DNA of 64,000 nt from Falsigemmobacter intermedius (lineage in GTDB: Bacteria > Pseudomonadota > Alphaproteobacteria > Rhodobacterales > Rhodobacteraceae): contig NZ_SBLC01000015.1 of assembly GCF_004054105.1 (NCBI RefSeq), positions 1 through 64,000 on the forward strand, given 5' to 3'. The notes beneath the pieces are model-generated. The model had not been told where the DNA came from. It made no database searches and worked only from the letters and a program-made list of their open reading frames with translations. Below, piece after piece: positions 50,600 through 56,300 of the stretch. Numbering within the stretch: position 1 is the stretch's first letter; the number at the start of each line of letters is the position of its first letter. Both the position numbers and the translations under genes were made by a program.

Positions 50600-51061
50600 A
50601 TGCCCCCGCTTTCACGCCGTATGCTGCTTGCCGGTCTGCTGACCACTGGCCTGACCGCCTGCGCGGGGCGTAAGGCAGACGAGGGGCGCGATTACGGCAT
50701 CGGCCCGAACCCCGAACTGAACCGGCTGATCCATCACTATGCCGATCATTATGAGGTGCCCCGCGCCCTGGTGCACCGCGTGGTTCAGCGCGAAAGCAAA
50801 TACAACCCCCGCGCCCGCAATGGCAGCTATTACGGGCTGATGCAGATCATGCCGCAGACCGCCCGCACCATGGGCTATCGCGGCAGCCCGGAGGGGCTTC
50901 TGGATGCGGAAACCAACCTGAAATATGCGGTGAAATATCTGCGCGGGGCCTGGATGGTCGCGGATGGCAGCCATGACCGCGCGGTCTCCTGGTATGCACG
51001 GGGCTACTATTATGAGGCCAAACGCCGGGGCCTGCTGCGCGAGACCGGTTTGCGGAGCTGA
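50600..51061 (+). CDS. Lytic transglycosylase lipoprotein (SLT domain)
   Basis: The 153-residue protein has a lipobox LTACAG (Cys about residue 21), then a compact soluble lytic transglycosylase domain: 'IHHYADHYEVPRALVHRVVQRESKYNPRARNGSYYGLMQIMPQTARTMGYRG' with the catalytic Glu in QRESK, and 'NLKYAVKYLRGAWMVADGSHDRAVSWYARGYY'. It cleaves peptidoglycan strands. CAGGAG lies seven bases before ATG 50600; upstream in-frame starts give no signal peptide. It ends 168 bases before xrtE and may not be cotranscribed with it. Confidence 0.92.
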   Translation: MPPLSRRMLLAGLLTTGLTACAGRKADEGRDYGIGPNPELNRLIHHYADHYEVPRALVHRVVQRESKYNPRARNGSYYGLMQIMPQTARTMGYRGSPEGLLDAETNLKYAVKYLRGAWMVADGSHDRAVSWYARGYYYEAKRRGLLRETGLRS

Positions 51062-51229
51062 GCCGGCAGCCCTTGCAGAGCCGGGCTGCGGCCGTTCCGG
51101 TTTCGGAAACACTTTCGCCTTAATCTGACTCTACTCTGCAACAAATCTCCGTGGCAGTCTGAGCGCAGCCCGAGTGCCCGATCGCTTCGTGGCCCTGTGA
51201 CCTGTGATCAGTGAAGCCGGAGAGATGTA

Positions 51230-52828
51230 ATGAACCGCCGCCCCGCCCTCCGCCGCATGGCAAAGCTCATTGCATTTTTTCTGTTCGAAATCATCATTGT
51301 GGCGGTTCTCTGGCAGGGGCTTGCCAATTTTGAATGCCAGCTGACCGGCGCTCAGGGCTTTTGCTTTTTCCTGCGCAGCCTGCCTGCAAGGGCGCTGGCG
51401 CTGCTGGCGGTCTGGGGGGTGATTCTGCTCGCCCGGCCCGGCATCCTGACGCGCTATTTCGAATTTGCCTCAGATCCGCCCGACCGCCGGGCCAAATGGA
51501 TGCATTTCGCCGGGGTAGCGCTGCTGCTGCTGCCTCTTTTCATCGGCCTGGGGCAGGATCTCTCGCCCTGGTTCCGCGCCCTGGCGGCCGTCTGGCTGAC
51601 GGGGGCTTTGCTGGCCAGTCTGGGTGGCCTGCGCTGGATTGCCCCCGCCCGGGCCTGGAGCGCGGCGCTGCGCCCGGTCCTGCCCGCGCTGGTGCTGATC
51701 AGCATTCCGGCCTTTTTTGCCCCTGAGATCACCCAGGTCTTTCAAAAGCTCTGGACCGGGGATGCCACGCTGACGCTGGTGACCTTTTATCTGGTCAGCG
51801 GGCTTTTGCAGATCGTGAACGGCACGGTGCTCAGCGATCCCTCGTCTCTGGTGATCGGCGCGGGAGAGTTCTTCGTCCGCATCGCGCCCGAATGCTCCGG
51901 GGTTGAGGGGCTGGCCCTGGTGGGGGGCTTTCTTCTGCTTTATGCCGCGCTCTTTCGTCATCAGATCCGGCCGCTGCCCTATTGGCTGATCGTGGTGCCG
52001 CTGGCACTTCTGGCCAGCTTTGTGCTGAATATTCTGCGGATCGCGGGTCTGGTGCTGATCGGGATCAACGGCAATCCGCATCTCGCGGTGGAGGGGTTTC
52101 ACTCCTATGCGGGCTGGCTGTTTTTCACCCTGCTGGCGCTTTTGCTGATCTGGGCCGCGCAATCGCTGCCCTGGCTGCGCAAAAACCCCCTCCCGCGAGA
52201 GCGGGGCGAGGGGATGCGCAGCGACTGGCTGGCCGCGCGGATGCTGCCCTTCATCGCCTTTATGGTCATCTCAGCCCTGGTCATGGCGGCCTTTCCGCAT
52301 CCGGAACTGGGATATCCGCTGAAAGCCCTGGTCATGGCGGGGGCTTTGCTCTTCTTCCTGCCCGCGCTGCGCCGGCATGACTGGCACCCCGCGCTGCTGC
52401 CCATCTTTGCGGGTCTGGTGGTGGGGCTCGGCTGGTGGCTGGGCAACACCCGCGATGAGGCCGCCGGAGAGACACTTCTGGCGCAGCTGACCCTGCTGCC
52501 GGCACCGATCCTCGGGCTTTGGGTTTTGTGCCGCGCCGCCGGGACCACGCTGCTCGTGCCGGTGATCGAAGAGCTGTTCTTCCGCGGCTATCTGCAAAGC
52601 CGTCTGAGCCTGCCAGGGCCTGCGGGGGCAGTCATCGGACTGATGGCGACCTCGCTTCTCTTCGGGCTGCTGCACGGAAGGATTCTGGCGGGCTTTCTGT
52701 CGGGCCTGGTTTTCGGCGCGCTGATGCTCTGGCGCGGACGGATTGCCGATCCGGTCTGGGCGCATATCGCCGCGAACGGGCTGATCGCCGTGATCGCGCT
52801 GATCACCCGCGATGTCGGGCTGATCTGA
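51230..52828 (+). CDS. xrtE: Exosortase E / CPBP-type protease fusion (VPEID-CTERM system)
   Basis: The 532-residue membrane protein fuses two enzymes. The exosortase part has the transpeptidase triad Cys222 ('RIAPECSGVEGLAL'), Arg270 ('FVLNILRIAG') and His291 ('VEGFHSYAGW') among hydrophobic helices. The C-terminal part (about 420-530) is a CAAX-type glutamic intramembrane protease: EELFFR (447-452), 'LLFGLLHGR' (His482) and 'WAHIAANGLI' (His512, Asn516). This matches the XrtE subtype of the VPEID-CTERM system. It should cleave the VPEID signal of the convergent small protein. GGAGAG precedes ATG 51230. Family rule: usually one substrate per genome. Confidence 0.93.
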   Translation: MNRRPALRRMAKLIAFFLFEIIIVAVLWQGLANFECQLTGAQGFCFFLRSLPARALALLAVWGVILLARPGILTRYFEFASDPPDRRAKWMHFAGVALLLLPLFIGLGQDLSPWFRALAAVWLTGALLASLGGLRWIAPARAWSAALRPVLPALVLISIPAFFAPEITQVFQKLWTGDATLTLVTFYLVSGLLQIVNGTVLSDPSSLVIGAGEFFVRIAPECSGVEGLALVGGFLLLYAALFRHQIRPLPYWLIVVPLALLASFVLNILRIAGLVLIGINGNPHLAVEGFHSYAGWLFFTLLALLLIWAAQSLPWLRKNPLPRERGEGMRSDWLAARMLPFIAFMVISALVMAAFPHPELGYPLKALVMAGALLFFLPALRRHDWHPALLPIFAGLVVGLGWWLGNTRDEAAGETLLAQLTLLPAPILGLWVLCRAAGTTLLVPVIEELFFRGYLQSRLSLPGPAGAVIGLMATSLLFGLLHGRILAGFLSGLVFGALMLWRGRIADPVWAHIAANGLIAVIALITRDVGLI

Positions 52829-52830
52829 CG

Positions 52831-52859
52831 AAAAAACCGCAGCCCGGCGGGCTGCGGTT
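52831..52859 (-). terminator. Terminator of the VPEID-CTERM gene
   Basis: AACCGCAGCC and GGCTGCGGTT pair around a 5-base loop; on the minus strand a T run follows. It also lies past the xrtE stop, so it may end both transcripts. Confidence 0.8.
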
Positions 52860-52881
52860 CTGATCTTCAGGGAAAATCCGC

Positions 52882-53112
52882 TCAGGCGCGGCGGCGCGAG
52901 CGTTCCCAGGCAAAAGCCAGCGCTGCGAGAACCGCGGCAACGGCCAGTGCCGAGCTGGTGACATCAATTTCCGGCACGGTGGTCGCCGGCGGATGGTTCC
53001 CGTTGCCGAAGATCCATCCCCAGTTCCAGCTCCAGCTCCAGGTTTGAGCCATCGCCGGAACTGCGGTGGCCAGCAAAACGCCGGCCGCAGTCAGACTTTT
53101 CACGAAAGGCAT
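52882..53112 (-). CDS. VPEID-CTERM substrate protein with Trp-alternating mature peptide
   Basis: The 76-residue protein has a signal peptide (about 1-22, ending AMA|Q), a 23-residue mature region QTWSWSWNWGWIFGNGNHPP then ATT, the VPEID sorting motif at 46-50, a hydrophobic helix (about 55-68) and the basic tail ERSRRRA. Such tripartite C-termini are cut by exosortases. The Trp at 25, 27, 29, 31 and 33 alternate with small residues, an amphipathic beta-strand pattern. The gene converges on xrtE and is the only candidate substrate in the window. Function unknown. Confidence 0.9.
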   Translation of the reverse strand: MPFVKSLTAAGVLLATAVPAMAQTWSWSWNWGWIFGNGNHPPATTVPEIDVTSSALAVAAVLAALAFAWERSRRRA

Positions 53113-53173
53113 CTTAAATACTCCACAAAGGCGTAATCACATCCGCCGTAAACGCTACGCGCCCGCCCGGGCT

Positions 53174-53191
53174 TAAAATCAAGAGATTTTA
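53174..53191. promoter_or_regulatory. Palindrome upstream of the VPEID-CTERM gene
   Basis: TAAAATC-AAGA-GATTTTA is a perfect 7-bp inverted repeat, 62 bases before the start codon. It could be an operator or a leader hairpin. The rest of 53113-53333 shows nothing I recognise. Confidence 0.4.
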
Positions 53192-53333
53192 CTGCCCCCC
53201 GGGGAATACCACACCCTCAACCGGACCTCTGATGCGGCGGCTGATGTAATCACGCGGATGCGTGGTTAATCCCTTCCAAATAAGAAACAATCAGATCAGC
53301 CCTGGGTTGCGTTAACCACCCCTCTCCGCAACT

Positions 53334-53362
53334 AAAAAAGCGCAGCGAATCACTCGCTGCGC
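53334..53362 (-). terminator. Terminator after ftsK
   Basis: GCGCAGCGA and TCGCTGCGC form a 9-bp stem with a 5-base loop; on the minus strand a T run follows, 27 bases past the ftsK stop. Confidence 0.85.
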
Positions 53363-53388
53363 CTTGTTTTGCTGGTGATCGGGGCCGC

Positions 53389-56300
53389 TCAGTGTTCCGG
53401 CAGCAGGATCTCGCGCTTGCCCACGTGGTTGGCAGAAGAGACGACGCCATTGTCTTCCATCTGCTCCACAAGGCGGGCGGCTTTCTGATAGCCGATGCCC
53501 AGTTTGCGCTGAATGTAAGAGGTCGAGCACTTGCGATCGCGGGCCACGATGGCCACGGCCTGATCGTAAAGCGCATCCTCTGAGTTCTCGCCACCGCCCA
53601 GACCAAGAATCTGGTCGATGTCATCGGCCTTCTCGTCGTCGGGGCCATCCACCACGCCCGACATATAGGTCGGCGGGCCGAAGCTCTTGAGATGGTTGAC
53701 GATCTCTTCAACCTCTTCATCCGAGACGAAGGGACCGTGGATCCGGCTGATGCGGCCGCCACCGGCCATGTAAAGCATATCCCCCATGCCCAGAAGCTGC
53801 TCAGCGCCCATCTCACCCAGGATGGTCCGCGAGTCGATCTTCGATGTAACCTGGAAGGAAATCCGGGTCGGGAAGTTCGCCTTGATCGTCCCGGTGATGA
53901 CGTCCACCGAAGGACGCTGCGTCGCCATGATGAGGTGGATCCCCGAGGCCCGCGCCATCTGCGCCAGGCGCTGGATGCAGGCTTCGATCTCTTTGCCCGC
54001 CACCATCATCAGGTCGGCCATCTCATCCACGATGACGACGATGTAGGGGAAGGGCTGCGGGGCAAATTCATCGGTCTCAAAGACCGGATCGCCCGTCTCA
54101 TCATCAAAGCCGGTCTGGATCGTGCGCTTGAACATCTCGCCCTTGGCCAGCGCCTCACGGACGCGGCCATTATAGCCTTCGATGTTGCGCACGCCCATTT
54201 TGGACATTTTGCGGTAGCGCTCTTCCATCTCGCCCACGACCCATTTCAGGGCGACGACCGCCTTTTTCGGGTCGGTCACCACGGGAGAGAGCAGATGCGG
54301 GATGCCGTCATAGACCGACAGTTCCAGCATCTTGGGGTCGATCATGATGAGGCGGCATTCTTCCGGCGTCAGCTTATAAAGCAGCGACAGGATCATGGTG
54401 TTGATCGCCACCGATTTACCCGAGCCCGTGGTCCCTGCGATCAGCAGGTGGGGCATCTTGGCAAGGTTGGCGATGATCGGCTCACCACCGATGTCTTTGC
54501 CGAGCGCCAGCGGCAGGCGCATATTGCTGTCGCCAAAATCACGCGCGGTCAGGATCTCGCGCAGCACGACCTTTTCACGGTGCACATTCGGCAGTTCGAT
54601 CCCGATCACGGAGCGGCCCGGAACCGTCGAAACACGGGCCGAGAGCGCCGACATGGACCGTGCGATGTCATCCGACAGGCCGATCACGCGGCTGGCTTTC
54701 AGACCCGGCGCGGGCTCCAGCTCATACATGGTGACCACGGGGCCGGGGCGGACCGAGACGATCTCGCCTTTGACGCCATAGTCCTCCAGCACCGATTCCA
54801 GCATGCGGGCATTGTCTTCCAACTGCTCATCAGAGAGGTGATGACGCTCAATGCTGGCCGGATTGGTCAGAAGCGACAGCGGCGGGGCCTCATAGGCAGC
54901 CGTCACGCGATCCTCAAAGGTGACCGGCGCGCGCATCGGCGGAGCGGCAGGCGCTGCGGCGACGGGGCGGGGGGCTGCGACCGGGGCGGCGGGCGCCGCT
55001 GCGGTCGGGCGGCGCAGAACCGGGGCCGCAGGCGCGGCACCGCGACGGATGTCGGGGGCGACCATGGGCGCGGCCTGAACGGCTGCGGGCGCGCGCAGCG
55101 CAGGGGCGGAAGCGGCTTCCCAGGCAGCGTCTTCATCCGCCTCTTCGTCATAGTCAAAATCATCTGCCGGCCCGGCGGCGCTGAGAACCGGCTCACGGCG
55201 CAGATCAATGCGGCGGCCCGGAGCGGCCGTCATCGGCGGCTCTTCGCTGCGCGCGATCACCGGGGCGCGCAGATCTTCGTCCTCAAATTCACTGCCGTCT
55301 CCGTCATAGCCGGTCCAGGACAGATCTTCCCCCGCCTCAATCACGGCATCATAGCTGCCGGTCTCATCAGGGGCTTCCAGCTCAAAGGCGTCTTCATACT
55401 GTGGGGCGCGCTGGGCCGCTGCCATGGGCTGAGCCGGTTGGGCAGCATAAGAAGGTGCAGGCGCGGGACCAGGGCTGACCGCAAGGCGCATCGGCGCTTC
55501 GGGCACCATGGCCGCAGCCGTCTGAGCCGCAGCCGCGCTGCCCGCGACAGCCGCAGCCGCGCCGGCAACCGCATCGCGGGCCGAGATCTGCCGCGCCTGG
55601 GCCGCAGCCACCGCGCGCGAGACCGCCGGATGAACCGGCACATCGCCCCGTCCGCGCTGAACCGGCGGCTCAATCCGGCCGCCGGGGGCGACTGCGGGCG
55701 CTGCTGCCGCACGGGATTTGGCGCGGATGGCGTCATTGATGCGCTCACGGATCCGGTCTGGTGTCGGCGCCTCAACCGCGCTGGCATGCGCGGCGGGTTC
55801 TACCAGCTCCGGCTCGGGCGCGCGACGGATCAGGCCCTCAACCCGGGCCCGCAGCGAGCGCACGGCCTCCCCTGCCCCGCTCTGGGGCGCGTGTTGGGGG
55901 GCGTAGCCCGCGGGTGCACGGCTTTCCATGCGCGGCTCAGCGGTCAGACGTGGCGCCGCGCCACGCAGACGCGGCGCAGGGGCGACGGGGATGTCAAAAT
56001 CCTCATCATCCACCACTGCATCACGCTGCGCACGGCGGGCGGCGTATTTCTCACGCATGCGGCCACCCAGATCGGTGGCACCCGAGGCGGCCCGCAGGCC
56101 GAGCTTTTGCAAAGCGCTCAGCAGCCAGCCATAGGCCACAATGCTGCCAAACATCAGGAACCGCCCGATGCTGCGCAGCTCTGCCCGGTCAAAGCCCAGC
56201 GAGAAAAGCCCGGTGGCGATCATCGCCCCGGCCAGCAGAACGGCGGCAATTTTCAGCGCCACGCCCGCACTCAGCGGAGCAACCCCGATCAGCGCGCCAA

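Follow-up and report, generated by a model that had tools for sequence, protein, structure and literature searches.

The exosortase/protease fusion XrtE of Falsigemmobacter intermedius and its co-inherited VPEID-CTERM partner with a short payload

In the window, the 64,000-nucleotide stretch of Falsigemmobacter intermedius DNA analysed here, the gene xrtE (51230-52828, + strand, 532 aa), encoding an exosortase E/protease fusion, converges with a gene for a VPEID-CTERM protein of 76 aa (52882-53112, - strand). We found that xrtE and its VPEID partner are a tightly co-inherited pair. The partner has a short payload, which in the window's group begins for the most part with aromatic residues, and both predicted active sites of the enzyme, that of the exosortase and that of the protease, are conserved. 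XrtE probably acts as an enzyme dedicated to maturing a single short peptide that is exported. The pair itself is a regular member of the already named TIGR04161/TIGR04162 system. XrtE matched the NCBIfam model TIGR04162 with 464.1 bits (cut-off 150; profile positions 2-516 of 516) and the partner matched TIGR04161 with 44.6 bits (cut-off 33; positions 1-31 of 31, spanning partner residues 46-76). Fusion and motif are those of the family, both scores lie above the curated cut-offs and no departure was seen. The nearest named relative found was Falsigemmobacter faecalis (L076), with an XrtE 86% identical.

Two catalytic domains in one XrtE chain, as proposed in an earlier sequence-only reading of this DNA, were borne out by Pfam matches above cut-off. 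The exosortase half matched PF09721 at residues 71-310 (51440-52159, + strand), and the CPBP (Rce1-like) glutamic protease half matched PF02517 at residues 431-517 (52520-52780, + strand) with 57.9 bits against a gathering score of 22.4. Residues 335-528 also exceeded the cut-off of TIGR03008 (105.1 bits vs 81.05). That reading had placed the genes and their residues correctly: Cys222 (51893-51895), Arg270 (52037-52039) and His291 (52100-52102) lie on the + strand in the exosortase half, and the EELFFR motif (Glu447-Arg452; Glu447 and Glu448 at 52568-52573, + strand) lies in the protease half. Together with His482, His512 and Asn516, Glu447, Glu448 and Arg452 give the EExxxR, His and HxxxN set of CPBP proteases. 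C222, N267, R270, H291, W431, R435, E447, E448, F451, R452 and H482 were conserved in 93 of 93 XrtE sequences. H512 and N516 were conserved in 91 of the 93, the exceptions being L083 (assembly gap) and L115 (premature stop). A Cys36...Cys45 pair between the first two helices (51335-51364, + strand), found in 91/91 XrtE sequences covering the sites, could form a disulfide, and the site is probably on the outer face.

The AlphaFold2 model of XrtE had a mean pLDDT of 89.7 and a pTM of 0.78. For the protease half, VIA-align ranked SpdC (6u0o, Z 8.2) and MmRce1 (4cad, Z 6.0) first and second, scores that are modest for helical bundles. These two proteins may share a CPBP-type fold with XrtE residues 334-530, but both are without an exosortase half. 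No match was obtained when the model was compared with the PDB by Foldseek at E<=0.001, or when PDB sequences were searched with the XrtE profile up to E 10.

The partner has the layout MPFVKSLTAAGVLLATAVPAMA / QTWSWSWNWGWIFGNGNHPPATT / VPEID / transmembrane segment plus basic tail, all encoded on the - strand. By a home-made rule of thumb, residues 1-22 (53047-53112) form a predicted signal peptide with cleavage after AMA, and by the same rule and the sequence itself the payload comprises residues 23-45 (52978-53046), with 5 Trp in 23 residues. The VPEID motif at residues 46-50 (52963-52977) was found by pattern and profile searches. It is followed by the transmembrane segment and basic tail at residues 51-76 (52885-52962), assigned from the sequence and the TIGR04161 match. 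Between the convergent genes, a hairpin read directly from the sequence (52836-52858, no strand assigned) is a likely terminator; its A-tract fits a - strand transcript, and it was absent from the terminator-scan output.

To find other VPEID-CTERM proteins the whole draft genome (4.05 Mb, 151 contigs, completeness 100) was searched by profile, and TIGR04161 gave a single match, the partner, even at E<=10. Likewise, one exosortase and one PF02517 domain were detected at E<=0.01, both in the window, and the PEP-CTERM model TIGR02595 had no match at E<=1. The VPEID codon pattern had 2 further exact DNA matches, on contigs C13 and C87, neither of which matches TIGR04161; the reversed control pattern gave one match in the genome. 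The proposal that the partner is the apparent only substrate of XrtE held for the window genome; among relatives a single substrate is usual but not universal. All 32 genomes in which TIGR04161 matched well had one match apiece, whereas 4 of 8 genomes chosen for odd loci carried 2 to 4 TIGR04161 matches. Four of these loci, when inspected, had short payloads and no xrtE within about 3 kb. In one relative (L129) there are four VPEID genes, including three consecutive ones next to xrtE, and two of those inspected were leaderless.

Co-inheritance was followed in 292 genomes of the order (Rhodobacterales), counting xrtE when above the TIGR04162 cut-off. Full-length xrtE was found in 32 of them; 28 further genomes matched through ordinary CPBP proteins only, below the cut-off. 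The VPEID profile (E<=0.01) matched 34 genomes; in 32 the E-value was below 1e-5, and in 27 the score exceeded the cut-off. By search, 31 genomes had both genes, 1 had xrtE only, 1 had a VPEIS gene only (G178, xrtE absent) and 259 had neither, which corresponds to a Fisher p of about 1.6e-39 with relatedness ignored. The single genome with xrtE only (G273) has a divergent adjacent partner that was found by pattern. A VPEID or VPEIS gene thus accompanies full-length xrtE in 32/32 genomes, in agreement with the dedicated enzyme-substrate pair that had been suggested. It is adjacent in 31 of the 32 and lies on another contig in G263. The partner is convergent and downstream in 22 of these genomes, and upstream in the same direction in 8 plus G273.

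A second set of named loci (80 of 168 relatives, mostly Rhodobacteraceae) overlaps the 292 genomes, so the counts are not additive. Here the partner was within 1.5 kb of xrtE in 75 of the 80 loci: 74 found by pattern and L083, whose convergent partner copy is interrupted by the assembly gap. Among the 74, the partner was convergent and downstream in 67 and upstream in 7 (6 in the same direction, L134 divergent). The partner of L135 lies on the same strand, 1.8 kb downstream, and the genomes of L082, L085, L116 and L120 each have a TIGR04161 match elsewhere, that of L120 below the cut-off. The upstream arrangement can be explained by 1 change on a quick tree built from 93 XrtE sequences; 8 rows were left ungrouped, namely the six without a pattern-found partner, G263 and L143.

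The sequence-only reading had not remarked on the near-absence of cargo in the partner. Counted from the assigned signal-peptidase site to VPEID, payloads of the convergent group were 9-59 residues long (median 27.5, 60 proteins); they were 20-27 residues in leaderless partners (14 proteins) and 5-20 residues in the upstream-arranged group (18 proteins, including G263 and G178). The longest payload measured was 59 residues, and no length limit had been set in the profile search or the pattern. Payload starts came from a simple rule with hand corrections. The signal rule classed 23 of the 93 distinct proteins as lacking a signal; 14 of these, from 13 loci, were retained as leaderless. For L126, L124, L105, L107, L112 and L079 a signal was accepted on inspection by eye, and the payload starts of the first five were set by hand. 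The second gene of L151 remained with the upstream group, and the payload statistics exclude L143 and L088.

Tryptophan made up 12.1% of the convergent (60), 9.6% of the leaderless (14) and 0% of the upstream-arranged payloads (18), against a background of 1.84% in neighbouring proteins. At least 3 Trp were present in 40 of 60 convergent payloads vs 1.8% of random 27-mers, and 204 of 227 payload Trp fell in the first half. As 11 of the 60 convergent and all 18 upstream-arranged payloads have none, the system can do without Trp. In the window's group the product would be a peptide of about 20-35 residues that begins with aromatic residues and continues in a linker rich in Gly, Ser and Thr; it would stay at the cell surface or be released.

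The regions upstream of the partner genes share short elements. Of 68 such regions, 19 contained the word GAAACAAT, where 0.18 was expected from the same loci, and 21 contained CGAATCA, where 0.46 was expected; both enrichments are post hoc, because the words were chosen from the same 68 regions, many of them from related species. In the window a copy of the former, ATTGTTTC on the partner strand (53284-53291, - strand), lies 172 bp before the partner ATG. The window copy of CGAATCA is in a hairpin at 53340-53362, about 230 bp upstream of the partner and near the ftsK end, and for this reason CGAATCA was not counted as an operator. When the window genome was searched for a regulon of its own, GATTGTTTC was found at 12 sites vs 3 for the reversed control pattern. 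A sigma-54 promoter, to which TGGC...GC spacings noticed by eye had pointed, was not convincing: 11 of 68 regions had at least 8 matches vs 7.2 in shuffles, and the best signature in the partner upstream regions had 9 of 11. A sigma-70 scan of 50900-53500 found none.

We compared 34 neighbourhoods by clustering of the neighbours, without profile annotation. Apart from XrtE, no gene family was present in more than 14 of the 34, and a receptor, transporter or modifying enzyme accompanying the pair was not found by this clustering. Directly upstream of xrtE, the window has a gene for a small lytic transglycosylase (50606-51061, PF01464) with a lipobox-like start, which belonged to no family common to the other 33 clustered neighbourhoods.

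In the upstream-arranged clade, a gene for a large adhesin-like protein (SdrD_B/cadherin-like) adjoins the partner in 10/10 VPEIS genomes and in 5 of 7 upstream-arranged named loci. Examples next to the VPEIS partner are L056:6594-9479, L058:5939-8773 and L065:4544-9403. In those whose start is clear, no signal peptide is apparent; a CxC stands at the C-terminal end or close to it in 10/10, and 1 of 4 scanned has a thioester-domain match below cut-off. These loci could hold a three-gene operon. As an obligate third component the adhesin-like gene was rejected: its C-terminal domain has no match in the window genome and occurs in 6 genomes without TIGR04161. No sorting tag was seen in the adhesin-like proteins of those six genomes among the matches listed.

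Thirteen loci (12 named and G140) have a partner that lacks a signal peptide and opens with an aromatic segment. On the quick XrtE tree, this leaderless state takes 4 changes by the fewest-changes count, at least 3 of them forced by starred branches. Among the Roseovarius relatives, L110 (Roseovarius nubinhibens ISM) has a partner with a signal peptide and L139 (Roseovarius sp. 217) a leaderless one. In L139 a stop codon immediately precedes the partner ATG, and nine other named leaderless loci have 1-17 in-frame residues available upstream of the start. L115 has 49 and L147 has 28 such residues, neither stretch resembling a signal peptide by eye. In 12 loci the leaderless partners have N-tails of net charge -1 to -4 and C-tails of +3 to +5, so by the positive-inside rule an N-out topology is predicted. 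In L115 (Roseovarius gaetbuli) a premature stop in xrtE stands alongside an intact leaderless partner.

The XrtE-VPEID pair resembles the XrtA/EpsH-PEP-CTERM system in its Cys-Arg-His exosortase and its tripartite C-terminal tail. According to Haft 2006 (PMC1569441), XrtA/EpsH serves up to 65 PEP-CTERM targets per genome, has exopolysaccharide neighbours and, in Proteobacteria, a sigma-54 upstream motif, and four EpsH-CAAX protease fusions were already given there as Rosetta stones. Unlike the multi-target system described there, the window genome has one VPEID target and no TIGR02595 match. A report on myxosortases (PMC11980579) describes a CPBP protease that sorts MYXO-CTERM proteins, a two-gene unit of MrtJ with a single JDVT-CTERM protein, and cleavage by MrtX that depends on a Cys in the motif. 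MrtX and MrtJ/JDVT-CTERM are like XrtE in having a CPBP protease and a tripartite C-terminal tag, but they are without an exosortase half, and VPEID lacks the Cys of the MrtX motif. The CPBP half of XrtE matched several myxosortase models, but stayed below their cut-offs (Mrt_core 43.6 bits vs 100; also MrtP, MrtC, MrtS and MrtJ). New at the family level are the short aromatic payloads, the leaderless members, the second arrangement with the adhesin-like gene and the shared promoter element. The term 'VPEID-CTERM' was not found in our literature search, which did not cover the 2012 archaeosortase/exosortase paper, where parts of this may be in print.

The sequence-only reading had suggested that the protease half removes the stub or the signal peptide; removal of the signal peptide was not supported. 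Taken in full, the model has the exosortase cutting at VPEID and the protease half taking off the signal peptide or what is left of it. In its favour, the two domains occur together and are conserved, and a signal peptide was assigned, by the rule or by eye, to the majority of partners. However, all protease residues are kept in 12 of the 13 enzymes facing leaderless partners (the 13th being L115), which disfavours signal-peptide removal as the job of the protease. Moreover, the protease half is no less constrained in leaderless groups, with dN/dS of 0.165 and 0.077 (5 and 3 loci) vs 0.189 and 0.221 in two signal-peptide groups; exosortase halves in the four groups gave 0.216, 0.121, 0.098 and 0.204, all rough values because dS was near saturation (means 1.07-1.31). 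Pairs with dS >=2 (enzyme halves) or undefined dS (partner parts) were excluded from the means. Ordinary signal peptidase I would also suffice for signal-peptide removal. We regard the full model as very unlikely, and the interpretation of that reading overall as partly supported. Some CPBP proteins are said to have roles in maturation or self-immunity, and the CPBP family membership of XrtE would suit a partner that is a membrane-active toxin or bacteriocin-like peptide, with the CPBP half serving its maturation or the producer's immunity. Short Trp-rich payloads, two Cys in 8 of 60 convergent ones and a payload dN of 0.21-0.54 vs a tail dN of 0.06-0.21 in four groups point the same way, as payloads change faster than tails. 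Yet no gene family accompanies the pair in more than 14 of the 34 neighbourhoods, the enzyme retains both active sites, and the upstream-arranged payloads are tiny and free of Trp, which leaves a toxin rather improbable.

Ordinary sorting, in which the partner is a small surface protein used in biofilm formation or attachment and its shortness has no special meaning, would be in line with the tripartite tail, the same as in PEP-CTERM proteins, and with the adhesin-like neighbour of the upstream-arranged clade. That every measured payload ended at or below 59 residues argues against it, and so does the restriction of the adhesin-like gene, whose C-terminal domain the window genome lacks and of which none was found within about 6 kb of downstream-arranged named loci; we therefore think this unlikely. 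If the partner did not serve as a substrate but belonged to XrtE as a small subunit with a regulatory or structural role, payloads as short as 5 aa and a transmembrane tail more conserved than the payload in 4/4 groups would be easily understood. This is highly improbable in our view, since the VPEI[DS]/VPEMD motif and basic tail match the curated sorting-domain model and unlinked partners occur.

Returning to XrtE as a maturation enzyme, its action may be pictured as follows. The partner would be inserted with its N-terminus outside; a signal peptide would bring this about, and in leaderless relatives the short N-terminal tail would itself be translocated. By analogy with the family, the exosortase half would then cut at VPEID, and the peptide would be released or its new C-terminus passed to an acceptor such as a lipid or sugar. 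The CPBP half would act on the same C-terminal region, most likely in clearing the membrane stub or in making a second cut. Removal of the C-terminal stub by the protease is possible, and the conservation pattern supports the view that the CPBP half does not remove the signal peptide. More tentatively, and with some doubt on our side, XrtE/VPEID might be a ribosomal peptide-maturation system and not a protein-sorting one: its product, a short peptide at the surface or released, would begin with aromatic residues and end in a processed C-terminus, perhaps linked to a lipid or a sugar. Leaderless members would then show that the signal peptide can be spared, the tail being short enough to pass through the membrane unaided.

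Exosortases and bacterial CPBP proteases are widespread, and to our knowledge their chemistry is mostly untested. The pair reduces the problem to its smallest form: a single enzyme that carries both active sites, and a single very small substrate, here of 76 residues. With such a short cargo, the intact product and its cut sites should be readable by mass spectrometry, which would give both the attachment made by the exosortase and the role of the protease, and the leaderless relatives offer a natural control for the question of the signal peptide. At the family level, the pattern of interest is a sorting system with a short, often aromatic peptide cargo that can forgo the signal peptide. That there is almost no protein cargo, and that the export signal is occasionally lost, point to the finishing of a short surface peptide and not to ordinary protein sorting. 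If the peptide-maturation reading is true, XrtE/VPEID would represent C-terminal sorting in which no protein cargo is carried, controlled from a promoter element of its own.
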